A stretch of 64,000 nucleotides of DNA from Luteibacter yeojuensis (GTDB lineage: Bacteria; Pseudomonadota; Gammaproteobacteria; Xanthomonadales; Rhodanobacteraceae): NCBI RefSeq assembly GCF_011742875.1, contig NZ_JAAQTL010000001.1, positions 992,001 to 1,056,000 on the forward strand, given 5' to 3'. Positions 32,052-44,592 of this stretch are shown here, one piece after another. The notes beneath the pieces are model-generated. The model was not told the DNA's origin, made no database searches, and saw only the letters and a list, made by a program, of their open reading frames with translations. A program made the position numbers and the translations under genes. Positions within the stretch are counted from its first letter, which is position 1, and the number at the start of each line of letters is the position of its first letter.

Positions 32052-34277
32052 ATGTCTGCCGCCCCGTCCCGCCGCCGTACCTTGTCCTTGTCCATCCGTA
32101 CCGCCCTTGCCGCCACGATCGCCCTTGCCGCGGCGGCTCACGCCACGGCCGGAGGCACCACCGGCGGCGATCCGCAGCAGAATGCGCGGGACAACAGCAC
32201 GACGTTGTCCGGCGTCCAGGTCGAGGCCAATGTGGCTGCGCCCACGGCGGCGTACGCCGGTGGACAGGTGGCCCGCGGCGGGCGTTTCGGCGTGCTGGGA
32301 AACCAGGACGCGATGAACGTGCCGTTCGCCATCGCCAGCTATACCGATACCCTGATCCGCAACCAGCAGGCACGCAGCCTGGGCGACGTCGTTTCCAACG
32401 ACCCCGCCGTACGCACCGGTTTCGGTTTCGGCAATTTCTCGCAGACCTTCACCATCCGCGGCTTCCAGGTCTACAGCGACGACATCGCCTTCGACGGCCT
32501 GTATGGCCTGCTGCCACGCCAGCTGCTCGCTCCCGAGCTGATCAGCCGCGTCGAGGTCTTCAAGGGGGCAAGCGCCTTCCTCAACGGTATCAGCCCCGGC
32601 GGTTCCGGCGTCGGAGGGAGCATCAACATCGCGCCGAAGCGGGCGGAGGCCGCGCCCCTCACCCGTGTCGGACTCGACTGGGGAAGCGACGGCCAGGCCG
32701 GCGGCAGCGTCGATATCGGGCGGCGTTTCGGCGCCGGCGATGCCTTCGGCGTACGGGTGAATGCCGTGCACCGGGATGGCCATACCGCGATCGACGGCGA
32801 AAAGCGCCGCGTGACCGCCGCTTCCGTCGCGTTCGATTACCGTGGCGAGAAGCTGCGCGTCACCACCGACATCGGCTACCAGAAGCAGGTGATCACCGGT
32901 GGCCGCTCCGTCGTCTACGCCACCGGCATCGCGTCGGTGCCGCGCGCGCCGTCCGCGCGGACGAACTACGCCCAGCCATGGTCCGATTCGTCGCTGGAGG
33001 ACACGTTCGGCGTGATCCGCGCGGAGTACGACATCGCACCCTGGCTCACGGCATACGTGGCGGCCGGTGTCCACCATGGCAACGAATTCGGCGACTACGT
33101 GAGTCCTTCCCTGCTCGACCGCGAAGGCAACGCGACGGAATCGCGGTTCACCGTGCCGTACATCGCCGATACCGCCACGGGCGAGGCGGGCTTCAACGCT
33201 TTCTTCGAGACCGGCGCGGTCACCCATCGCATCAACCTCGGCTTCTCCGCGCTCGCCTTCCGCAAGAAAGCGGCATATGCGGGTTCGCTGGATCCGATCC
33301 TCACCAACATCTATTCGCCAACCCACGTGCCGGTTCCCGCGTTCGCCTACAACGTGGGCCCCATCAGCGACCCCGGCATCACCGGACGCACGCAGCTGCG
33401 CAGCGTGGCGGTGTCCGACACGCTGGGCTTCCTGGACGGCAGTCTGGAAGTGACGCTGGGCGCGCGCCGCCAGAAACTGCATGCGCTCGGCTACGCCTAT
33501 GCCGTGGACGGTGTGGACGGAGCGAAGAATGCCGATTACAAGCGCTATGCGACGAGCCCCGTGCTGGGCGTGAACTACCGTTTCACCGAGCGGTGGTCCG
33601 TCTATGCCAACCACATCGAAGCGTTGACACAAGGCGACCAGGCGCCGGCCAGTTTCGACAATCTTCCGGTCACCAATGCCGGCCAGGTCTTTGCGCCGTA
33701 CAAATCGAAGCAGAACGAAGTCGGCGTGAAGTGGGACGCCGGGACCATCGGCAGCAGCCTCGCGCTCTACCAGATCAAGCAGCCCAGCGCGTATGTGGAT
33801 GCTTCGAACACCTACGTGGTCGACGGCGAGCAGCGCAACCGCGGTGTCGAGTGGAATGTCTTCGGTCAGCCGGTGCGGGGCCTGCGCGTGCTCGGCGGCG
33901 TGAACTACATCCGTCCCGAACTGGTGAAGACGCAGGGCGGCGCCAACGACGGCAACGACGCCATCGGCGTGCCGCGCTTCCAGGCGAACGCAGGCGTGGA
34001 ATGGGACATCCCGGACACGCCGGACATCACGCTCAGCGCGCGCGCGGTCCGCACCGGTCGCCAGTACCTCGATACCGCGAACGACCTGAAAGTGCCGGCC
34101 TGGACCACCTACGATGTGGGCGCACGCACCACGGCCCACCTTGAGGGCGTGCCTGTCACGCTTCGCCTCACCGTGCAGAACGTGACGAACAAGGGCTATT
34201 GGGCATCGGCCAATGGTGGCTACCTGACCCAGGGCACACCACGCACGTTCTACGTCTCGGCGTCGTTCGATCTCTAG
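32052..34277 (+). CDS. TonB-dependent siderophore receptor
   Basis: A 741-residue outer-membrane receptor. A long signal peptide (core TALAATIALAAAAHATA) is followed by a TonB-box-like TTLSGVQVEA near residues 54-63, then the plug domain ('IRGFQVYSDDIAFDGLYGLL', 'RVEVFKGASAFLNGISPGGS') and a 22-strand-type barrel ending FYVSASFDL. The plug pattern is that of ferric-siderophore receptors; the substrate cannot be told. A Fur-like box precedes it, and no siderophore synthesis genes are nearby. Confidence 0.92.
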   Translation: MSAAPSRRRTLSLSIRTALAATIALAAAAHATAGGTTGGDPQQNARDNSTTLSGVQVEANVAAPTAAYAGGQVARGGRFGVLGNQDAMNVPFAIASYTDTLIRNQQARSLGDVVSNDPAVRTGFGFGNFSQTFTIRGFQVYSDDIAFDGLYGLLPRQLLAPELISRVEVFKGASAFLNGISPGGSGVGGSINIAPKRAEAAPLTRVGLDWGSDGQAGGSVDIGRRFGAGDAFGVRVNAVHRDGHTAIDGEKRRVTAASVAFDYRGEKLRVTTDIGYQKQVITGGRSVVYATGIASVPRAPSARTNYAQPWSDSSLEDTFGVIRAEYDIAPWLTAYVAAGVHHGNEFGDYVSPSLLDREGNATESRFTVPYIADTATGEAGFNAFFETGAVTHRINLGFSALAFRKKAAYAGSLDPILTNIYSPTHVPVPAFAYNVGPISDPGITGRTQLRSVAVSDTLGFLDGSLEVTLGARRQKLHALGYAYAVDGVDGAKNADYKRYATSPVLGVNYRFTERWSVYANHIEALTQGDQAPASFDNLPVTNAGQVFAPYKSKQNEVGVKWDAGTIGSSLALYQIKQPSAYVDASNTYVVDGEQRNRGVEWNVFGQPVRGLRVLGGVNYIRPELVKTQGGANDGNDAIGVPRFQANAGVEWDIPDTPDITLSARAVRTGRQYLDTANDLKVPAWTTYDVGARTTAHLEGVPVTLRLTVQNVTNKGYWASANGGYLTQGTPRTFYVSASFDL

Positions 34278-36028
34278 GCGATGTCGGCCATCACCCGGTT
34301 CCTGCCGGCCCGCTTCGCCCGGTAAAGCGCAAGGTCGGCTTCGCGGCACAGGCGCAACAACGCATGTCCGGTACCGTCGGTGGAGGCGACACCCACGCTC
34401 GCGGAAATGGACAGGACGCGACCGTCCTCTTCCACCGGCGCACTTTCGATGGCCATGCGGATACGATCGGCGACGACGATGGCGCGCTCCCTCCGGCAAT
34501 CCTGGAGGAGGATGCCGAACTCCTCGCCGCCGAGCCGCCCGAACAGCGTGCCCGATCCCAGCTGACGCTGGCAGATGGCGACGGTGTGGCGCAGCACGAG
34601 GTCGCCCATGGCATGACCGTAGGTGTCGTTCACCTGCTTGAAGTGGTCGAGGTCGATGAACACGAGGCAGGCGTCGACGCGGCGCTTTTCCAGTGTCTTC
34701 AGCACGCGGTCGGCCTCGCTCATGAAATGCTGGCGGTTGAAGATGCCGGTCAGGCCGTCGTGCCACGACAGCCGCATGAAGCGGACCTGCGATCGCTTGA
34801 GCCGGAACAGCCAGAACACGACCGAGAGAAGGAACATCGAGAGTAGCGAGATGTAGAGACGACTGGTTTCCACGGCCTTGGTTTCCAGCGCCTTCTGCAG
34901 GCGCAGGATACTGTTCTGCCTGCTCAGGCGTTCCGTCTCGAGTTTCTGTACCACGACATGCTGCCGGCTCAGCTCGAAGGCCAGTGTCCGCGCGGTGACG
35001 TCGTTGAGGTTGCCCCTGTCCTGGACGCTGTAACGCTCGTAGTACTCGAGCGCCTTGGCGGCGTTTCCCAGGGCCTTCTCCGTGCGGTACAGCACGCCGT
35101 AGGCATCGCGCGTGTACTCGCTCGTTTCGGACGGAGCGGCCATGGCGATCGCCGCCCTCGCGGCCTTCAACGCCTGGTCGTTCCTGCCAAGCATTTCGTA
35201 TGCCTTCGCCTGCTGCACCTGCGACGAAAGCATGTGCGGGTAATACTTGTTGGCCTGAATGCTCGGCCAGACCCGTTCCAGCGCTTCCAGTGCCTCGTGC
35301 GGCTGCCGCTCGTCCAGGAACCGGTCGATCTGGACGAGCCGCATGGTATTGGCGAGCACGGGCTGCCGTGCCTGGACGCAGGTGCTCACGGCCTGCGCCA
35401 CGTCGTTGCCGTCGGGGCGCAGGCGGTGCCCTTCGTAGAGCGCGGCGACACGCAGGGAGAGCGGGTAGCAGGTCTCGCCTGATGGCGTGCCGCCTTCCAT
35501 CATCATGTCCGCGTACTTCACGGCGAGGTCGGTCTGCCCCGCGAGGTTGAACATCTGCGACAGGTTGCCGAGGAGCATCGAACGGGCCAGGGGATCGTTC
35601 ACCGAAGGGAGGAGCGAGGTCAGGCGGTTGGCGAGCGCATAGGCCTCCTGGTAGCGCTGGGACAGGCCCAGGTTGCTCAGCAGCAACGCCGAGGCCTTCG
35701 CCGCGAGCGTCGCGTCCCCGGAACGGTCGATCACTTCGCGGAGCAGCTTCTCCGAGGCCGGGTAATCCCCCTGGAACATCGTCTCCCACGCGTCGAGGTA
35801 GCGCAGGTGCCATCGCTCGGCGGGCGTCAGGCTCGATGCCTGTCCGTGCATTTCCGCCATCATCCGCACGAAGCGCGGATGGTCCTTCGTGCGCACGCTT
35901 TCAGCCTGCACGAGGAAGCTCGCCGGGTCCTCGACCGAAGAGGCGGCCCGGGCGCCTGGCACGAGCACGCAAAGGCCCACCGTCGTCCGGAAAAGCCAGG
36001 ACCGGACAAGGGTGGGCCAACGATGCAT
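34274..36028 (-). CDS. Diguanylate cyclase with periplasmic TPR sensor region
   Basis: A 584-residue protein: signal/membrane segment (LFRTTVGLCVLVPGARA), a helical region of TPR-like repeats (about 60-370), a coiled-coil and one transmembrane helix ('LYISLLSMFLLSVVFWLF', about 395-415), then a GGDEF domain with an intact GGEEF motif at 500-504 and the conserved 'LSWHDGLTGIFNRQHFMSEA' and 'FIDLDHFKQVNDTYGH'. It should make c-di-GMP in response to an unknown periplasmic cue. The start is 11 bases after the stop of the small peptide gene, so it may be the third gene of the methyltransferase operon. It overlaps the TonB receptor tail-to-tail by 4 bases. Confidence 0.9.
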   Translation of the reverse strand: MHRWPTLVRSWLFRTTVGLCVLVPGARAASSVEDPASFLVQAESVRTKDHPRFVRMMAEMHGQASSLTPAERWHLRYLDAWETMFQGDYPASEKLLREVIDRSGDATLAAKASALLLSNLGLSQRYQEAYALANRLTSLLPSVNDPLARSMLLGNLSQMFNLAGQTDLAVKYADMMMEGGTPSGETCYPLSLRVAALYEGHRLRPDGNDVAQAVSTCVQARQPVLANTMRLVQIDRFLDERQPHEALEALERVWPSIQANKYYPHMLSSQVQQAKAYEMLGRNDQALKAARAAIAMAAPSETSEYTRDAYGVLYRTEKALGNAAKALEYYERYSVQDRGNLNDVTARTLAFELSRQHVVVQKLETERLSRQNSILRLQKALETKAVETSRLYISLLSMFLLSVVFWLFRLKRSQVRFMRLSWHDGLTGIFNRQHFMSEADRVLKTLEKRRVDACLVFIDLDHFKQVNDTYGHAMGDLVLRHTVAICQRQLGSGTLFGRLGGEEFGILLQDCRRERAIVVADRIRMAIESAPVEEDGRVLSISASVGVASTDGTGHALLRLCREADLALYRAKRAGRNRVMADIA

Positions 36029-36039
36029 GCAAAGTCCTG

Positions 36040-36321
36040 CTAGTACGGGAGCGACTTATCGTCGTCCTTGCGTTCGGGTTCGTCCATATCCTCGTCGTCT
36101 CCTTCTTCCTCCCAGCCCGGAACCTGCGATACCTGCGTGGGCGGATTGGGCCGGTCGCCGAATTCGTCGGCCAGGACGTCGCCGTCTCCCGTGGCGGCGG
36201 CCTTCGTCAGGCAGGGCGTCGCTTCGGACATGGCCAGGATGTCCGCAAGGTCTTGCGCGGGCGCATGGCGTAGCGACGCATCGCTGCCAATGGCTTCCAG
36301 TAGATCGATCGTGTCCCGCAT
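36040..36321 (-). CDS. Candidate split-borosin precursor peptide (93 residues)
   Basis: A 93-residue peptide starting MRDTIDLLEAIGSDASLRHA with GGTAGGA 4 bases before the ATG. Residues 5-55 look like the helical binding domain of split-borosin precursors such as SonA: an 'IGSDASL' (11-17) followed by two helices and 'AAATGDGDVLADEFGD' (41-56). I recall SonA carrying 'LGQDAQL' and 'MTGDMEKLKTLSGD' at the matching places. The tail PNPPTQVSQVPGW (58-70) would be the modified core, followed by an acidic segment 71-89 ending SLPY. The methyltransferase gene lies 85 bases upstream. A longer frame (to 36441) overlaps that gene and lacks homology. Product identity is inference. Confidence 0.65.
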   Translation of the reverse strand: MRDTIDLLEAIGSDASLRHAPAQDLADILAMSEATPCLTKAAATGDGDVLADEFGDRPNPPTQVSQVPGWEEEGDDEDMDEPERKDDDKSLPY

Positions 36322-36406
36322 GTTCCTACCTTTCTGTCTGGTTACGGCATGCGAGCCGCGGTCGCGTGGGCTCGCCTCGCCGTTGACGGCAGGTGGCGGA
36401 ATTTCT

Positions 36407-37216
36407 TTATTCGAGAGCGGCCAGCCGTTCCTGGACGGCAAGGTTCGGCTTCAGCGCTTGCGCGGGAGGAAGGACCACCGTTTCCTCGGCGGTCAGCGGC
36501 GTGTGTGGCAGGTCGCGCAAGGCCACGCGGCGGATGCGCGGCCGTTCGATCGGCAGGGTGGCTGCGCGGTAGATGATCACTTCATGGTCGAGGGGGTAAT
36601 CGGCGGCGAGTACGTCGACCAGTACCTGCCGGTGCGCCGCGCCGGTGGCGAAGCGTTTCAGCGAACGATCGCCGACCACGCCCACCTGCCACAGCACGAG
36701 GTAGCCGGTGACGTCGATCCGCCTTTCGTAGAACAACAGCTGGCTGGCCTCGAAATGCTGGCAGCCGACGCGGCCCGGATCGAAGCCGAGATCGGCGTAG
36801 AGACAATCCTCGGCCGAGATGCCAGGCTCCATATGGGCTTCGAACCCTTCGGCGCGCGCCACCTCGATCGCCTTGTGCGGCGACCACGCGAAGATGCCGG
36901 GGTGCCCGTAGAACACGCCGCAGACGCGCTTGCCCGCGCGCACCTCCGTCATCAGTACGTCGACCCACTCCCGGTAGGTCTTCATCCGCGACTTGCCCTC
37001 GCGATAATGCGACTGGAGGCTCCGCACGTCCGGATGCATGCGTTGCAGCCAGGTTTCGACGATGCCGTCGGAGAGCGCGGCGAAGACCACGTCGGCCTGC
37101 TCGATATGGCTGCGCGCGAGCGGCGTCAGGTGGGAGCCGAGGGTCATGCCCAGGCCGACGCAGGCAAGGCTGCCGCGGGCCGGGTTTCGGGGCGGATGAG
37201 GGAGCGGCGTGTTCAT
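36407..37216 (-). CDS. Borosin-type peptide backbone N-methyltransferase (tetrapyrrole-methylase fold)
   Basis: A 269-residue SAM-dependent methylase. It shares with the fungal OphMA methyltransferase domain a continuous series of motifs: 'GSLACVGLGMTLG' (15-27), 'HYREGKSRMKTYREW' (70-84), 'VFYGHPGIFA' (101-110), 'PGISAEDCLYADL' (131-143), 'GCQHFEAS' and 'YLVLWQVGVVGD'. The three residues implicated in OphMA catalysis (Tyr66, Arg72, Tyr76) match Tyr71, Arg77, Tyr81. Unlike OphMA the precursor is not fused; instead a precursor-like peptide gene follows. Corrin or porphyrin methylation is the alternative, but no cobalamin genes are near and the length is standard for split borosin enzymes. Confidence 0.8.
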   Translation of the reverse strand: MNTPLPHPPRNPARGSLACVGLGMTLGSHLTPLARSHIEQADVVFAALSDGIVETWLQRMHPDVRSLQSHYREGKSRMKTYREWVDVLMTEVRAGKRVCGVFYGHPGIFAWSPHKAIEVARAEGFEAHMEPGISAEDCLYADLGFDPGRVGCQHFEASQLLFYERRIDVTGYLVLWQVGVVGDRSLKRFATGAAHRQVLVDVLAADYPLDHEVIIYRAATLPIERPRIRRVALRDLPHTPLTAEETVVLPPAQALKPNLAVQERLAALE

Positions 37217-37263
37217 CGCGCGAATAGTAGGTCATCGCGATGACAGCGGCACGCGCCGGAAGC

Positions 37264-38754
37264 TCAGTGCGGATCGCCGCCCCCGATGGCCTTGCAGATC
37301 GCCACGTAGCGGACAGCGAGCTGTGCGTCGCTCTCCGCCCTGTCGCGTTGCGCCGCAAGCAGGCTGCGCCGGGCGTCCAGGGCGTCGATGTAGCTGGTCT
37401 CGCCGTGCCCGTAGCGCGCATCGGCCAGCCGGTCGGCGTCCCGCGACAGACGCTCGCGCTCGGCCAGCCGCTCGTTCCGCTCACGCTCGGCCGCGTAACC
37501 GTTCAGCGCCGTGTCGATATCGGTCCACGCCCGCAGCACGGTGCCCTGGTAGGCGACCGCGGCTTCCTGCTGCTCCAGCTTGCGCAGGGTCACGACGCTC
37601 TTCCGGCGGCCCATGTCGAACACCGGGAGATCGAGGCGGGGGCCGACGGACCATCGCCGGCTGCCCCAATCGGCGAAATCGCCCGAGTGCAGCGACTCGA
37701 AAGCGAATCCGGCACCGAGCGTGATGCGTGGGTAGAGGTCCGCCACCGCCACGCCGATGTTCGCCGTGGCCGCGTGCAGGCGAGCCTCGGCCTGGCGGAT
37801 ATCCGGTCGGCGGCGCGCCACGTCGGACGGAATGCCCAGGGCCAGATCGGGCAGGATGCGCGGCGGCCCTTCCCCCTCGACCGCGGCCAGCGTCGCTCCC
37901 AGGCTTCCCGGCGACTGCCCCAGCAGCAGCGACAGCTGGTCGAGTGTGCCTGCCTCGCGTTCGAGCAACGCGGGCAGACGCGAGCGGAGCTCGGCCAGCA
38001 GCGCTTGCTGCCGGGTGGCATCGAGATCGCTTGCCATGCCTCCGTTCGCGCGGGCCTTCGTCAGGTCGAAACGCTCCGTGGCCGCATCGATGTCGCCGCG
38101 GGTCAGCGCCAGCTGGCGCTGCAGGCCGCGGAGTTCGAAGTAATGCCGCGCCACCTCCGCCGCCACGTCGAGGCGTGCGCCATCGAAGAGTGCCGCGGCT
38201 TCGTCGACCCGCGCATCGGCGGCTTCGACGGAACGGCGTACGCGGCCCCAGAAATCCGGCTCCCAGGAGGCGTCGAAACCTGCCTGGTAGTCGTTGAAGG
38301 GTTGGCTGAGGAGCCGCACCAGTTCGTCCCGCCGCTCGGCCGGCGCGAGCACGTCGATGGTGCGGCTGGTGGTGCCGTTCTCGCTGGGCCGTTGCCGTTG
38401 GGCGGTGGCATCGACGTCGACCCGCGGTCCCCGCTGGGCCGCTGTCGCGCGCCTCTGTTCGCGGCTCTGGGCGAAACGCAGCGCCGCCGTCCCGAGATCC
38501 GGATTCGCGGCGGCGGCCTGGGCCTCGAGCTGGTCGAGCACGGGATCGCCGAACGCCTTCCACCATGCGTCCGAGGATCGGGCGTCGCTCGCGACGAGGG
38601 CGGGATCGTGCAGCGATGCATCGCCGCCCCGGGCCGAAGACCAGTCTGTCGGGGCACTCGCCCGCGGCCTCTCGAAGTCGGGACCGACCGCGCACCCGGC
38701 CAGTGCGCAACCGGCGGCGAAGATCAGGACGGGAAGGAAAAAAGACGTTCGCAT
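37264..38754 (-). CDS. Outer-membrane efflux lipoprotein (TolC/NodT family)
   Basis: A 496-residue protein with a lipobox (ALAGC, Cys about residue 21) in MRTSFFLPVLIFAAGCALAG, then 'PDFERPRASAPTDW' and two long coiled-coil repeats ('LFDGARLDVAAEVARHYFEL', 'PDIRQAEARLHAATANIGVA') typical of OMFs. It starts 13 bases after the second ABC permease, so it supplies the outer-membrane channel of the export operon. The longer frame to 38907 reads out of frame with the permease gene. Confidence 0.92.
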   Translation of the reverse strand: MRTSFFLPVLIFAAGCALAGCAVGPDFERPRASAPTDWSSARGGDASLHDPALVASDARSSDAWWKAFGDPVLDQLEAQAAAANPDLGTAALRFAQSREQRRATAAQRGPRVDVDATAQRQRPSENGTTSRTIDVLAPAERRDELVRLLSQPFNDYQAGFDASWEPDFWGRVRRSVEAADARVDEAAALFDGARLDVAAEVARHYFELRGLQRQLALTRGDIDAATERFDLTKARANGGMASDLDATRQQALLAELRSRLPALLEREAGTLDQLSLLLGQSPGSLGATLAAVEGEGPPRILPDLALGIPSDVARRRPDIRQAEARLHAATANIGVAVADLYPRITLGAGFAFESLHSGDFADWGSRRWSVGPRLDLPVFDMGRRKSVVTLRKLEQQEAAVAYQGTVLRAWTDIDTALNGYAAERERNERLAERERLSRDADRLADARYGHGETSYIDALDARRSLLAAQRDRAESDAQLAVRYVAICKAIGGGDPH

Positions 38755-38767
38755 GAGACGCACCGGG

Positions 38768-39895
38768 TCAGACGAGTCGGTTTCGGAAGAGCCATGCCGC
38801 GAGCGGAAGCGTGACGCTGGCGATGCCGAGCAGCGGAAGGATGTCGCCGAGGACGGTGCCGAGGCCGACACCCTCCAGGTACACGCGCTGGACCATATGG
38901 ATGGCATAGCGCGCGGGATCGATGGCGGTCAGCCACTGCATCGCGACGGGCATGTTCGCGATGGGGGTGGTCATGCCCGACAGGAGCACCAGCGGCATCA
39001 TCAGCACGAAGGTGTAGAGCATGGCCTGCTGCATGCTGGCCGCCATGGCGGAGATCGCCAGACCGATACCCACGCATGCCACCATGAAGACGAGCAGCGC
39101 CACGTACAGCGTGCCCAGGGAACCGGCCATGGGAATGCGGAACCATAGCGTGGCGATCAGGAGCACCAGGCTGGCCTGCACCAGCCCCACGACGATGGAC
39201 GGCACGGACTTGCCGATCATGATCTCGGCCGGCGTGCAGGGCGTCACCAGCAACTGGTCGAAGGTACCCTGCTCGCGCTCGCGGGCGACCGACAGCGCCG
39301 TCAGCATGAGCGTCTGCAGCATGCTGAGGATGGCGATCATCGCCGTCATCATGAACCAGCGGGTCTCGAGGTTCGGGTTGTACCAGCTGCGCACGTCCAG
39401 GGTGAGCGGAACGCTGCCGCCGCCGTGCTCCCTCCGCCAGTCCGCATTGAACCGCGACACGATCGTGCCCAGGTACCCCGCCGCGGTGCCTGCCGTGCTC
39501 GAATTTCGCGCATCGAGAATCAGCTGCACCGGCGCGCTTTCGCCCCCTTCCAGCCGCTGCTCGAAGCGCGGCGGGATGTTGACCACGAAGAGGACCTTGC
39601 CGGCGTTCACGATCGGGGCGATGTCGCTCTCGTTGCGCAGCGTGGCCACGCGCCGGAATACGCCCGACCCCTCGATCCGGGCCACGAGGCGCGTGGCTGC
39701 CTGTCCGTGGTCCTGGTCGAGCAGCGCATAAGGCGCCTGGCGAAGGTCGAGCGTGGCCGCGTAGCCGAACATGAGCGATTGCACGAGCACGGGTGCGAAG
39801 AGAACCACGCGGCTGGCGGGATCCTTGAGGATCACCTTGAGCTCCTTGAGGCACAGGTTCGCCACGCGGCGCAGGAAAGCAGGCAGGCCGCTCAT
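38768..39895 (-). CDS. ABC-2 type permease, second subunit (YbhR-like)
   Basis: A 375-residue membrane protein: N-terminal helix after 'NLCLKELKVILKDPASRVVL', a large periplasmic domain, then about five helices containing 'SVAREREQGTFDQLLVTPCT', the cytoplasmic coupling motif of the family. ATGA overlap with the preceding permease gene. Together they form the membrane channel for the double ATPase. Confidence 0.9.
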   Translation of the reverse strand: MSGLPAFLRRVANLCLKELKVILKDPASRVVLFAPVLVQSLMFGYAATLDLRQAPYALLDQDHGQAATRLVARIEGSGVFRRVATLRNESDIAPIVNAGKVLFVVNIPPRFEQRLEGGESAPVQLILDARNSSTAGTAAGYLGTIVSRFNADWRREHGGGSVPLTLDVRSWYNPNLETRWFMMTAMIAILSMLQTLMLTALSVAREREQGTFDQLLVTPCTPAEIMIGKSVPSIVVGLVQASLVLLIATLWFRIPMAGSLGTLYVALLVFMVACVGIGLAISAMAASMQQAMLYTFVLMMPLVLLSGMTTPIANMPVAMQWLTAIDPARYAIHMVQRVYLEGVGLGTVLGDILPLLGIASVTLPLAAWLFRNRLV

Positions 39896-41016
39896 CCGAT
39901 CAGCTTCCGTGTCTTCGCGCGCGCCGCGGCGAGCAGCACCACCGCGTAGCCGATCAGCACCGCGCAGTTCTTCAGGATCATCGGCCAGAGGTTGCCGGCG
40001 AGGAACAGGCTCTTGAGCGTCTCCAGGTAATAGGTGGCGGGGAGCACCCGTCCCACGCCCTGCACCAGGAGCGGCATGTTGCGCAGGTCGTAGATGAAGC
40101 CTGAAAGCATCAGCGCCGGCATGAAGCTGGCGACCAGCGCGACCTGGCTGGCGGTGAACTGGTTTTTGGTGACGGCGGAAATGAGCAGGCCGATGCCCAG
40201 CGCGACGAACAGGTAGAACACCGACACGACGAGGATCAGGAGGAGCGAGCCCTCGATCGGCACGCCGAAGAGGAAACGCGCCGCCACCAGACACATGGCG
40301 ATCCCGATCAGGCCCACGCCGAAGTACGGAATGATCTTCGCCAGCAGGATCTCGATCGGCCGCACCGGCGTCACGAACAGGGCTTCCAGCGTGCCCCGCT
40401 CCCATTCGCGCGCCATCACCAGCGCGGTGAGGAAGGCGCCCACGAGCGTGGTGATGAGCACGATCAGGCCAGGCACGAGGAACCATGTGCTGGTGTTGGC
40501 CTCGTTGAACCACATCCGCGATTCGAGCCGCACCGCTCCCCCGGCATCCGCGGGCGAGGCCCATGACTGCAGCGCGGACTGCACGTAGCCCTGCACGATG
40601 CGCGCGGTGTTGGCGTCGGCACCATGCAGGATCAGCTGCAGGTGGGCGTCGCCGAGCGCGAGGCGGCGCGTGAAGTCGGAAGGGATGCGCAGGATCCCGT
40701 TGACCTTCCGCTCCAGCATCAGGGCCTCGGCCCGGTGCATGTCGTGGACGAGCGTCGGGTCGAGGTACGGCGACAGCCGCATGCTCGCCACCATCCCGTG
40801 GGCGGTGGGCGAGGTGTCTTCCATCACGACGGCCAGCGGCGCGTTCTTCACGTCGAACGACAGGCCGTATCCGAAGATCAGGATCAGCACCAGGGGCAAG
40901 GCGATGCCCATCATCAGGTTGCTGCGGTCGCGCAGGAGCTGCTTCACCTCCTTGCGCACGAGCGCCGTCAGGCGGCGCAGGAAGGCACCGCGGGTTTGCG
41001 GCTTCTGCGCGGTCAT
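39892..41016 (-). CDS. ABC-2 type permease, first subunit (YbhS-like)
   Basis: A 374-residue paralogue of the next gene, starting MTAQKPQTRGAFLRR, with 'ALVRKEVKQLLRDRSNLMMG', a periplasmic domain and C-terminal helices with 'VMAREWERGTLEALFVTPVR'. ATGA overlaps on both sides show strict co-translation. Confidence 0.9.
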   Translation of the reverse strand: MTAQKPQTRGAFLRRLTALVRKEVKQLLRDRSNLMMGIALPLVLILIFGYGLSFDVKNAPLAVVMEDTSPTAHGMVASMRLSPYLDPTLVHDMHRAEALMLERKVNGILRIPSDFTRRLALGDAHLQLILHGADANTARIVQGYVQSALQSWASPADAGGAVRLESRMWFNEANTSTWFLVPGLIVLITTLVGAFLTALVMAREWERGTLEALFVTPVRPIEILLAKIIPYFGVGLIGIAMCLVAARFLFGVPIEGSLLLILVVSVFYLFVALGIGLLISAVTKNQFTASQVALVASFMPALMLSGFIYDLRNMPLLVQGVGRVLPATYYLETLKSLFLAGNLWPMILKNCAVLIGYAVVLLAAARAKTRKLIG

Positions 41017-42797
41017 GCGGCCTCCCTGTCGCCGCCGCGCGTGTCCTTGCGGTGCCGCTGCACGATGCCGATGAACGCCTGTTCCATGTCGAGCGGCGTC
41101 TCGCCGGTTTCGCCCGCCTGCGAGCGGATGTCCCCGGGGGTGCCCAGCGCCAGGACCTTGCCGGCGTCCTGGATGACCACACGGTCGCAGTACTCGGCTT
41201 CTTCCATGAAGTGCGTGGTGACCACGATCGTCGTGCCGCCCTCGGCCAGCGCCGTGATACGCCGCCAGAACTCGCGCCGCGCGAGCGGATCCGCGCCGCT
41301 GGTCGGTTCGTCGAGGAAAAGGATGTCGGGCTCGTGGAGGAGTCCCGTCGCCATCGCGAGGCGCTGCCTGAAGCCGCCGGGCAGGAGGCCCGCCTGCGAA
41401 TCGCCCACGCCGTCCAGCTCGAACTGCGATTTGACGGTACGGATCCGGTCGCGCAGGCGCGCGCCGTACAGGCCGTACGCGCCGCCGAAGAACGTCAGGT
41501 TCTCGTCGACCGAAAGGTTTCCGTACAAGGCGAACTTCTGCGACACGTAACCGATCTCCTGCCGCGCCGGCGCCCGCGCCTTGCGCAGGTCGTAGCCGGC
41601 GACACGCAGCATGCCGGAGCTGGCGGGAAGGAGTCCGCAGAGCATGCGGAAGGTGGTGGTCTTCCCCGCCCCGTTGGGACCGAGCAGGCCGAAGATCTCG
41701 CCACGCTCCACACTGAAGCTGGTGCGGTCCACCGCGGTGAAATCGCCGAAGGTGCGGACGAGATCCTTCACCTGGATGACCGTGCCGTCTTCGTGCTTCG
41801 CCGGCGATGCCGACGAGGCGACCGATGCCGCGGCGCCGAAATCGCGACGGACTTTCGAGCGCAGGGCCAGCATCACGCCGTCCTCGAGCGTGGGCGGGAC
41901 GCCGTTGCAGGCCGCCTCGCCAAGCAGGGCAGCCAAGGGCGGATCGCCCTTCTCCACCGTCTCCTTCGCGCGTACGAAATGCACCTTGCCGCCCCGCGGC
42001 ACCGCATCCACCGTGTCGCCGTCGTCGAGCAGGCGGGCCTGGAGGTGGCGCGGGGTCTCGCCGCACGGGGGCACGGCGGCGAAGCAGAGACCGTCCGCGG
42101 TGTCGCGGATGGAATCCGGCGTTCCCTGCGCGAGCACGCGTCCCTCGTGCAGGATGACGACATGCGCGCAGCGTGCCGCTTCGTCCATGTAGGAGGTGCT
42201 CACCAGCACGCTGAGTTTTTCGTCGCCCACCAGCTGTTCGACGATCTCCCAGAGTTCCCTGCGGGAAAGCGGATCCACGCCCACGGTCGGTTCATCGAGC
42301 AGGAGCAGTTCCGGCGAACGCACCAGCGTGCAGGCGAGGCCAAGTTTCTGCTTCATGCCCCCGGACAACTTCCCCGCGGGCCGTGCCGTGAAACGGCCCA
42401 GGTCGGTCATTTCCATGAGGCGGGCATACCGCTCGCGGCGCCTGTCGCGGTCCACTCCGTGCAGGTCGGCATACAGGTCGAGGTTCTCCTGCACGCTCAG
42501 GTCGTCGTACAGGCCGAAGCGCTGCGGCATGTAGCTGATCCGGTCCTGCACCGCCTGCGGATCGCGTGCGGCGTCGATGCCCAGCACGGTCACGCTCCCG
42601 GCATCGGCGACCATGAGTCCCGCGGCAAGCCGCAGCAGCGTCGTCTTGCCTGCCCCGTCGGGGCCGACGAGGGCGCTGATCGCGCCGGCGCGCACCTCGA
42701 GCGAGACTTCCTCCAGCGCCTGCACCGCACGGCCGCCGCGCTTCGGGGCGAAGCGCTTTGCCACACCCTGCGCGACGAGGGCGGCCGAATCGCTCAT
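41013..42797 (-). CDS. Double ABC-transporter ATPase (YbhF-like)
   Basis: A 594-residue protein with two complete nucleotide-binding domains in tandem. Walker A motifs are GPDGAGKTT (about residue 42) and GPNGAGKTT (second half), with signature motifs LSGGMKQKLGLA and LPGGFRQRLAMA and Walker B 'LLLLDEPTVGVDP' and 'ILFLDEPTSGADP'. The tandem design matches YbhF. Overlaps hlyD (ATGA) and the permease. Confidence 0.93.
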   Translation of the reverse strand: MSDSAALVAQGVAKRFAPKRGGRAVQALEEVSLEVRAGAISALVGPDGAGKTTLLRLAAGLMVADAGSVTVLGIDAARDPQAVQDRISYMPQRFGLYDDLSVQENLDLYADLHGVDRDRRRERYARLMEMTDLGRFTARPAGKLSGGMKQKLGLACTLVRSPELLLLDEPTVGVDPLSRRELWEIVEQLVGDEKLSVLVSTSYMDEAARCAHVVILHEGRVLAQGTPDSIRDTADGLCFAAVPPCGETPRHLQARLLDDGDTVDAVPRGGKVHFVRAKETVEKGDPPLAALLGEAACNGVPPTLEDGVMLALRSKVRRDFGAAASVASSASPAKHEDGTVIQVKDLVRTFGDFTAVDRTSFSVERGEIFGLLGPNGAGKTTTFRMLCGLLPASSGMLRVAGYDLRKARAPARQEIGYVSQKFALYGNLSVDENLTFFGGAYGLYGARLRDRIRTVKSQFELDGVGDSQAGLLPGGFRQRLAMATGLLHEPDILFLDEPTSGADPLARREFWRRITALAEGGTTIVVTTHFMEEAEYCDRVVIQDAGKVLALGTPGDIRSQAGETGETPLDMEQAFIGIVQRHRKDTRGGDREAA

Positions 42798-43807
42798 GGC
42801 TTCGCGGCCACCGTGCCCGGCAGCCGCACCGTTGCCGGCATGCCGAGACGCAGGCGATCCTCGGGATCGTCCACGTTCACGCGCACCTCGTAGACGAGGC
42901 TCGTGCGCAGGTCTTCGGTCTCGACGTTCTTCGGCGTGAACTCGGACACCGAGGCGATGTAGCCGATGCGGCCCGCGATCGGACGATCGGGCGCGCTGTC
43001 GGTCGTGACACGCGCGGCCTGGCCGGGTTTGATCCGGCTGAGGTTGGCTTCCGACACATAGGCCCGTACCCACTTGGGATGCAGCACCGCCAACGCGTAC
43101 ACCGGACGTTGCGGCGAGGCCATGTCGCCCGGTTCGAGCAGGCGGCTGCGCACGACGGCGTCGATGGGAGCCTTCAGCTCGGCGTCCGCGAGTTCCTGCC
43201 TGGCGACCGCGGCTTCGGCCAGCGCGGCTTCGCGTTGCGCGCGGGCTTCGTCGACGTCCTCCTTGCGCGGACCCGCGACGGACAATTCGTGCGCCTTGCG
43301 CAGGGAGTCCACCTTCGCATCCGCGGCGGTGGCAGCGGCGAGCGCCTGGTCGAGATCCTCGCGGCTCACCGCGCGGCCGCCGGTGTCCCGGCTGATCGAA
43401 CGGAGCCTTTCGAGTGTCTGGTGGGCCATGCGCGCATCGGCCTGCGCGGCACGCATGTTGGCGTCGGTCTGGGCGATTTCCTGCGGCCGGTTGCCTGCCT
43501 CGAGGCGGCGCAGCACTTCGTCCTGCACGCCGACCTGGGCCTCTGCCTTGGCGAGCCGCAGCTTGAGCGTCCTCGTGTCCAGCGTCGCCAGGACCTGCCC
43601 GCGCGTGACCCGGTCACCCTCCTCCACGCGCATCCCCGCGATCCGCTCGTTCACCTTGAAGGCGAGCGACACCTGACGGATGTCGATGTTGCCGTGAAGC
43701 ACGATCGGCTGGTCCGGGCTGGGCCGCAGCAGCCACCAGAGCGCCAGGCCCAGCAGCAGGACGAGGACGATCAGGCCTAGGAAGAGGGGGCGCTTCGGCT
43801 TAACCAT
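42794..43807 (-). CDS. HlyD-family membrane fusion protein (YbhG-like)
   Basis: A 337-residue periplasmic adaptor with an N-terminal anchor (KRPLFLGLIVLVLLLGLALW), a lipoyl domain split around a long coiled coil ('LRLAKAEAQVGVQDEVLRRL', 'DEARAQREAALAEAAVARQE') and the beta-barrel domain. First gene of a five-gene export operon equivalent to ybhG-ybhF-ybhS-ybhR with an added outer-membrane factor. A TTGATT/TAGACT promoter-like pair on the minus strand upstream (about 43841-43870) overlaps the repressor palindrome. Confidence 0.93.
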   Translation of the reverse strand: MVKPKRPLFLGLIVLVLLLGLALWWLLRPSPDQPIVLHGNIDIRQVSLAFKVNERIAGMRVEEGDRVTRGQVLATLDTRTLKLRLAKAEAQVGVQDEVLRRLEAGNRPQEIAQTDANMRAAQADARMAHQTLERLRSISRDTGGRAVSREDLDQALAAATAADAKVDSLRKAHELSVAGPRKEDVDEARAQREAALAEAAVARQELADAELKAPIDAVVRSRLLEPGDMASPQRPVYALAVLHPKWVRAYVSEANLSRIKPGQAARVTTDSAPDRPIAGRIGYIASVSEFTPKNVETEDLRTSLVYEVRVNVDDPEDRLRLGMPATVRLPGTVAAKP

Positions 43808-43862
43808 GGACCGGGCTCGGTGCGGTAATGCCCCGCAGTCTAGGCCCGCACACGGCCAAAAA

Positions 43863-43878
43863 TCAAATGCAAATTTGA
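43863..43878. promoter_or_regulatory. Probable operator between the export operon and its TetR regulator
   Basis: TCAAAT-GCAA-ATTTGA, a perfect 6-bp inverted repeat. It lies between the divergent starts (43807 and 43894), overlapping the putative -35 of the leftward operon. TATAGT at 43881-43886 is followed by the ATG only 7 bases later, so the regulator may have a leaderless transcript. Confidence 0.6.
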
Positions 43879-43893
43879 GTTATAGTTTCGCGC

Positions 43894-44592
43894 ATGAGCG
43901 ATCGTCCCCATCCCCCTTCCGTCCGTCGCGGATCGCGCCAGGACGGCGAAAGCACCCGGGCCCAGCTGCTCGATGTGGCCGGCCGGCTGTTCGCCGAACA
44001 TGGCTACCTGGGTACGTCCAGCAAGGAGATCTGCCTCCGCGCCGGCATGAACATGGCGGCGGTGAACTACCACTTCGGCAGTCGCGACGGGCTCTACGAA
44101 GCGGTGCTCGTCGAAGCGCACCGCCAGTTGGTGAGCGTGGAGGATCTCGCGGCGTTCGCGCGCTCCGATCGTCCCCCGGGCGAGAAGCTGCGTGCCCTCG
44201 TGGCCCACTTCGTGAAGCAGGCCGGGCTTGGCGAGAAGTCCTGGGGGTTCAAGGTGGTGCTGAGGGAAGTGATGGCGCCCTCCCCGCTCGTGAACACGCT
44301 CGTCGAGCAGGCCGTCGCGCCCAAGGCCGGCATCGTGTCCCGCCTGATGGCGGCTTATCTCGGACTGCCTTCGTCGCACCCCGCGGTGCAGCGGGGCATG
44401 ATGTTGACGATCTTTCCGTGCATTGCCCTGCTCATCGCGCCGGAAGGTCTGCGGAAAAAGGTGTTGCCCGCCCTGTCGCCGACGTCCGAAGGACTCCTCG
44501 AAGACATGACCACCTACATCCTGGCGGGACTGGATGCGCTGTCCATAGCGCACGCCGGTTCCCGCACGAGCGCCCGCAAAGCGCGACCGTAA
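43894..44592 (+). CDS. TetR-family repressor (CecR/YbiH-like, DUF1956)
   Basis: A 232-residue regulator: HTH 'ARAQLLDVAGRLFAEHGYLG' (with T for A at the start) and 'ICLRAGMNMAAVNYHFGSRD', and a C-terminal domain with 'GFKVVLREVMAPSPLVNTLV', as in CecR. In E. coli CecR controls ybhG-ybhFSR; here the same gene set is divergent from it. The ligand is unknown; CecR relatives affect sensitivity to antibiotics. Confidence 0.9.
   Translation: MSDRPHPPSVRRGSRQDGESTRAQLLDVAGRLFAEHGYLGTSSKEICLRAGMNMAAVNYHFGSRDGLYEAVLVEAHRQLVSVEDLAAFARSDRPPGEKLRALVAHFVKQAGLGEKSWGFKVVLREVMAPSPLVNTLVEQAVAPKAGIVSRLMAAYLGLPSSHPAVQRGMMLTIFPCIALLIAPEGLRKKVLPALSPTSEGLLEDMTTYILAGLDALSIAHAGSRTSARKARP

Follow-up and report, generated by a model that had tools for sequence, protein, structure and literature searches.

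In a stretch of 64,000 nucleotides from Luteibacter yeojuensis (hereafter the window), a gene for a methylase is followed on the same strand by a small open reading frame (ORF) and by the gene of a membrane-bound sensor protein, an arrangement raising the question of which product is made at this locus and to what end. The first-pass annotation of the window had assigned the first two genes to a split borosin locus, namely a backbone N-methyltransferase and a separate precursor peptide, and both genes were found where it had placed them (Table 1). The methylase matched the Pfam family TP_methylase at 2e-20. A phmmer search of the PDB gave E 9e-76 for SonM and 2.6e-48 to 2.4e-45 for the fungal fused borosins, the sole corrin enzyme listed at E<=0.01 being a precorrin-2 C20-methyltransferase (0.0082), and alignment with SonM residues 2–255 gave 123 identical residues out of 251 (49%). 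In this alignment Y71, R77, Y81 and Y103 of the window enzyme correspond to SonM Y58, R67, Y71 and Y93, the residues mutated according to the main text of PMC8429565, so that the catalytic Tyr/Arg/Tyr proposed earlier at 71/77/81 is correct; the motifs GKSR..TY, VFYGHPG, EPGISAEDCL and WQVGVVG, previously noted as shared with OphMA, are likewise present.

None of the NCBIfam corrin/siroheme models came near its curated cut-off (best 37 bits against 525 for YabN, and 22 against 260 for cobM). By similarity search, the enzyme thus does not side with the cobalamin-type methylases, the grouping against which the first-pass annotation had set its proposal. That it is an ordinary corrin/siroheme-type tetrapyrrole methylase with the small ORF as a bystander, as the name of its Pfam domain might imply, has hardly any chance of being true given the distance between the SonM and precorrin matches, the NCBIfam scores, the conserved catalytic tyrosines and the match of the precursor family to SonA, and a corrin methylase identity was dropped on the NCBIfam scores and the PDB ranking.

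The precursor is encoded by its own ORF, 85 nt from that of the methylase, with the ATG at 36321 and AGGTAGGAAC just before it; an alternative longer ORF starting at a TTG spans 36040–36441, and most homologues begin at or near ATG 36321. In a large protein collection, 33 of 34 candidates were homologous at E<=1e-3, i.e., 32 proteins besides the query itself, and those named by organism come from Dyella and Luteibacter. As a single query the 93-aa peptide had no PDB match at E<=1. A profile of 56 precursors, which takes in SonA-like members such as those of loci L256–L258, matched SonA (best E 9.3e-14) over positions 1–65 with no gaps, and SonA-type chains (7 distinct sequences) were its only PDB matches at E<=1, in agreement with the split-borosin precursor suggested earlier. 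Residues L8, G12, A15, L17, D46 and L50 are conserved in at least 90% of these 56 sequences. On this sequence evidence the locus is almost certainly a split borosin, of a kind already known as type IV borosin.

Table 1. Features of the split borosin locus and of its downstream gene (positions in the window).
Feature	Position	Strand	Basis
Borosin-type alpha-N-methyltransferase, 269 aa	36407..37216	-	PDB phmmer match to SonM; catalytic residues; Pfam TP_methylase
Split-borosin precursor peptide, 93 aa	36040..36321	-	Homologues; family profile matches SonA
Leader / borosin binding domain, residues 1-55	36157..36321	-	Gap-free profile alignment to SonA leader
Linker and presumed core, residues 56-70 (DRPNPPTQVSQVPGW)	36112..36156	-	Register from SonA profile alignment
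Acidic tail, residues 71-93	36043..36111	-	Typical of precursors directly before the cyclase
Membrane TPR-sensor diguanylate cyclase, 584 aa	34274..36028	-	Pfam GGDEF 1.7e-39; TPR_14 above cut-off
Predicted periplasmic TPR sensor, about residues 31-390	34859..35938	-	Alignment of 76 proteins; hydropathy, charge
GGDEF domain, residues 422-578, GGEEF at 500-504	34295..34765	-	Pfam; alignment

As in the SonM/SonA system of Shewanella oneidensis (PMC8429565), the methylase is separate from a precursor with a borosin-binding-domain (BBD)-type leader and bears the same catalytic residues; the fungal OphMA, dbOphMA and MroMA belong to the same methylase family, but there enzyme and core are fused, whereas in the window they are separate proteins. 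The window precursor differs from SonA by the 23-residue acidic tail past the core and by the core itself, polar (TQVSQVPGW) instead of YLVI. In SonA the core covers residues 62–71 and, according to the main text of PMC8429565, methyl groups are placed on L63 and I65, which align with Q63 and S65 of the window precursor, V64 and Q66 being one step away; Q63 and S65, possibly with these neighbours, are thus the candidate methylation sites. Glutamine occupies column 63 in 64 and column 66 also in 64 of the 146 precursor rows (out of 174) that passed a filter on length and position 46.

The gene of a diguanylate cyclase starts 11 bp past the precursor stop, and its product shows a signal segment, a TPR sensor, a membrane helix and a GGDEF-type cyclase domain with an intact GGEEF motif. 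The two genes of the first-pass annotation hold, but the locus described there was incomplete, this TPR-diguanylate cyclase and three further precursor-cyclase pairs in the genome having been missed. Among the 118 homologous cyclase ORFs longer than 540 aa (out of 154 found), GGEEF is intact in all 118, and the membrane helix ahead of the GGDEF domain and an N-terminal hydrophobic segment are each present in 117. Since lysine and arginine together average 2.4 in the 15 residues before the membrane helix and 5.5 in the 15 after it, hydropathy and charge place the TPR part, by prediction, in the periplasm, where the invariance of C187 and C217 in 76 aligned proteins would be as expected for a disulfide. 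The intact GG(D/E)EF motif predicts an enzyme active in c-di-GMP synthesis. A simple RxxD inhibitory-site pattern occurs in 97 of the 118 cyclases and is absent from that of the window, which counts against a receptor role.

To what extent the three genes belong together was judged on the best 80 of 199 confirmed loci, which stem from close relatives and are interdependent; the probe for the TPR gene was seeded from the N-terminal 400 residues of the cyclase only, and the HMMs for precursor and TPR protein had been iterated on the very loci then counted. In a larger set the TPR gene was present in 132 of 144 loci, but this set holds repeats of the same genomic place, and the counts quoted here therefore refer to the 80 named loci. 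A precursor was found in 78 of them, and in 75 it is followed directly (<=400 nt) by the TPR gene, the exceptions being L119, L123, L124, L132 and L144. The TPR gene shares the methylase strand in 76 of 80 (it was missed in L123 and L132, where the sequence available downstream was 148 and 342 bp long, and in L124 and L144), and in all 77 methylase entries with both genes downstream the precursor lies ahead of the cyclase. Against a receptor role speak L119 and L017, in which the cyclase comes directly after the methylase and no precursor was found between them, and L018/L236, in which the methylase has neither precursor nor cyclase. In genome G016 a methylase-precursor pair (C12:207326) lies about 40 kb from a cyclase (C12:247392), before which no precursor was found. 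We regard it as very probable that methylase, precursor and TPR protein form one functional module.

Precursor and cyclase also go together apart from the methylase. The window's genome, in which the cyclase matches 19 GGDEF places, only 4 of them across the TPR part, holds 4 precursor places at E<=0.01 with the precursor profile, and precursors and TPR-cyclases are paired in 4 out of 4 cases (window, C1:277 kb, C3:124 kb and C1:1264 kb). The C1:1264 kb pair lies apart from all three borosin-type methylases of the genome, a fourth Pfam TP_methylase match being the rRNA methylase RsmI (NCBIfam TIGR00096, 230 bits, cut-off 168). The genome thus differs from the SonM/SonA system in having three methylase loci plus one pair with no methylase; the latter (L149, G000:C1:1263009-1265064) has a different core (YCCSQMPDD), and several genomes of the window's genus contain similar pairs apart from a methylase. 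Each of the 23 genomes of that genus carries precursors, 1 to 18 in number. Across 37 genomes 71 TPR-cyclases were counted, and 52 of the 68 inspected have a precursor within 700 nt upstream. Of the remaining 16, four are second cyclases in tandem and the others include apparent orphans, which may have diverged, overlooked precursors. The three cyclases outside this inspection are G013:C1 and G007:C1:1625799, each with a precursor just upstream by coordinates, and G002:C1:704875, which comes after another cyclase.

The position next to the cyclase is reflected in the precursor itself. In L208 (G009), the interval from methylase to cyclase holds 12 precursors, and only the last, cyclase-adjacent one bears an acidic tail, most of the others stopping shortly past the core (example PQATQSFCSSELS); L209 (G019) has the same pattern, with six short precursors and a long one. 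For precursors directly before a cyclase (128 distinct) the median length is 97.5 aa, with 11 acidic residues past position 55, against 77 aa and 4 acidic residues for those not directly before it (42 distinct), both tallies leaving out L033 and L009 (repeats), L016 (very probably a repeat of L110, with the same precursor) and L006, the last with no demonstrated redundancy. In loci with both kinds, the cyclase-adjacent precursor is the more acidic one in 13 of 15, L139 and L145 being the exceptions; acidic tails are thus found on most cyclase-adjacent precursors and are absent from most tandem extras. Some of the copies in L208 are near-identical, suggesting recent duplication. Other tails deviate in composition: those of L023, L026, L027 and L042 hold five or six histidines in runs among aspartates and could bind metal, and those of L022 and L138 have proline runs in place of mainly acidic residues. 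In the precursors of L039 and L041, core-like units are repeated (FQASQILTDFQATQM; VALMPPFSAALMPAFSVALM), which looks as though one peptide carried several cores.

In wider samples, the methylase was detected at E<=1e-30 in 9 of 369 class-level genomes and at E<=1e-25 in 15 of 398 phylum-level ones, both counts taking in the genome of the window itself and one or two others from its family. Out of 33 methylase loci fetched outside the family, 13 of them from the same order as the window, 26 have the TPR sensor in their flanks, L225, L231, L255 and L260 being counted as sensor-linked with precursor scores under the threshold (in L225, L255 and L260 a small ORF sits in the precursor's place), and seven have none (L224, L226, L227, L228, L229, L233 and L262). 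The output of the TPR protein varies: L223, L225, L260 and L261 encode one with a hybrid histidine kinase (HisKA, HATPase, receiver), which in L223 stands alongside a TPR-GGDEF protein and in the other three replaces it, and the TPR protein of L259 has no recognisable GG(D/E)EF. A peptide gene is therefore conserved beside a sensor gene with differing outputs, and a conserved sensor with a variable output suggests a receptor. In L262 (G444) the methylase domain is part of an open frame of 1177 aa, which may be a fused borosin. A search of viral contigs with the methylase patterns, whose reach is limited to close relatives, gave no match.

Three of the distant loci bring the sensor close to the characterised system. 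L256–L258 have SonA-like precursors, that of L256 being 93% identical to its closest relative, which is named Shewanella cyperi, and methylases 67–77% identical to SonM, and in all three a TPR-cyclase adjoins the precursor; the best-studied split borosin type therefore probably has the same neighbour.

Distances between the parts were compared over 101 methylase-precursor-cyclase triplets, with the same four loci omitted as in the precursor tallies and with permutations that ignore phylogeny. Core and TPR distances gave a partial rank correlation of 0.28 with GGDEF and methylase allowed for (0 of 300 permutations as high), falling to 0.22 once the leader was also allowed for; core distances correlated at 0.12 with the GGDEF domain and at -0.09 with the methylase. 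The leader, however, which is expected to lie outside the ligand, tracks the TPR part more strongly (0.52, against 0.21 with the methylase), and the core correlation may therefore largely reflect joint inheritance and similar rates. These values fit a precursor and a cyclase that travel as a pair with some match between core and sensor, to which shared history and unequal rates may contribute.

The genes around the module do not appear to belong to it. Directly upstream of the methylase, at 37264–44592, are genes for an outer-membrane factor, two ABC permeases, a double ABC ATPase, an HlyD protein and a divergent TetR regulator, a cluster that we take to be ybhGFSR-like. Its candidacy as peptide exporter was dropped, as the cluster does not accompany the module from locus to locus: only in L014 is the outer-membrane gene again found next to the methylase, and the other recurrences outside the window's own genome are weak matches in L071, to HlyD (26% identity) and TetR (39%), and in L055, to an ABC gene, with flanks of 1.5 kb in L006–L034, beyond which further efflux genes would be out of view. 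On the other side, a TonB-receptor gene recurs in L018, L085 and L119 (81–88% identity) and weakly in L118, which we attribute to gene order shared within the genus. Two neighbour clusters larger than all others, present in 58 and 19 loci, were rejected as further members, since most of their ORFs (60 of 72 in the first, 19 of 21 in the second) are frames overlapping module genes; the next cluster in size is present in 9 loci. No protease or exporter is conserved in the module and the precursor has no evident signal peptide, both of which count against a peptide-receptor relation. No Rfam family reached its gathering score within 33500–38500; the promoter scan found 0, and that for terminators found 1, against 1.9 in shuffled sequences.

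Taken together, the sequences give good support to the biosynthesis and to the linkage, and we consider it fairly probable that the module feeds a signal-transduction receptor, with the core (around residues 62–70), once methylated, as the signal read by the TPR sensor; for the peptide as the ligand of this sensor we lean, a little less firmly, to the same side. The methylase would bind the precursor via its N-terminal helical leader and, by homology, place methyl groups on backbone amides of the core, at residues ~62–70. Leader and acidic tail would then be cleaved off and the core would reach the periplasm, backbone methylation possibly helping it in protease resistance and membrane crossing. 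There it would bind the TPR sensor with its two invariant cysteines and change the activity of the cytoplasmic diguanylate cyclase and hence c-di-GMP, and in other genomes the same type of sensor would drive a histidine kinase phosphorelay. Extra precursors and methylase-less pairs might provide more signals or receptor specificities served by one shared methylase.

The same gene order could be read in the opposite direction, with the cyclase as upstream regulator: the TPR part would sense another cue, c-di-GMP would govern borosin production or release, and the borosin would act elsewhere, as an antibiotic, in metal handling or at the surface. The conserved operon-like order would be expected to look alike in that case, hybrid histidine kinases at the same spot are typical regulators of neighbouring clusters, and TPR-cyclases with no precursor do exist. 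This arrangement nevertheless seems unlikely to us, given precursor-cyclase pairs apart from any methylase (such as C1:1263009 in the window's genome), a core whose distances follow those of the sensor domain but not those of the methylase, and a surrounding of about 5 kb with no conserved biosynthetic or transport genes for an elaborate product. Still less probable is that the TPR protein is a handling partner, involved in maturation, delivery or self-protection of a secreted bioactive peptide. Peptide binding is common among TPR domains, and tandem arrays whose cores vary (L208 has 11 short precursors, L209 has 6) resemble compound libraries, but a GGEEF intact in 118 of 118 cyclases and a full kinase-receiver output in 4 loci would be superfluous for mere handling.

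A sensor read by a peptide encoded next to it has a counterpart in RRNPPA quorum sensing of Firmicutes, in which the peptide gene directly adjoins the gene of a TPR receptor, as in the window. RRNPPA receptors are cytoplasmic and mostly DNA-binding, whereas here the TPR part is predicted to be periplasmic, with GGDEF or histidine-kinase output, and the peptide would be backbone-methylated. For borosins, a GGDEF domain is named in a legend on borosin architectures (PMC11395268), in common with the window; since the legend lists it, some borosin-GGDEF association is in print, although the legend only expands the abbreviation and leaves type, fusion and neighbour arrangement unspecified. The main text of PMC8429565 makes no mention of GGDEF, diguanylate, cyclase, tetratricopeptide, TPR, signaling or operon. 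Neither a receptor claim nor a pairing of precursor and cyclase was seen in the literature examined, outside of which are the main genome-mining papers and their supplements, nor does that literature state a biological role for bacterial split borosins; the cyclase link may possibly have been described elsewhere. The borosin family itself is known; what sets this locus apart from a further member is the signalling arm of the module, the precursor-cyclase pairing rule and the methylase-less pairs.

More broadly, and tentatively, as the chances appear to us somewhat short of even, gammaproteobacterial split borosins may be mainly pheromone-like, an N-methylated peptide acting through a TPR receptor on c-di-GMP or a phosphorelay, with arrays and methylase-less pairs as a multi-channel peptide code; N-methylation would let the peptide survive proteases and reach the periplasm or neighbouring cells. 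The linkage in 26 of 33 distant loci, together with the Shewanella-type loci, makes the role of borosins a matter of simple tests. If true, Gram-negative bacteria would have a quorum system that leads from a peptide to c-di-GMP, bacterial borosins would gain a biological role, peptide signals a new class and backbone N-methylation a natural use.
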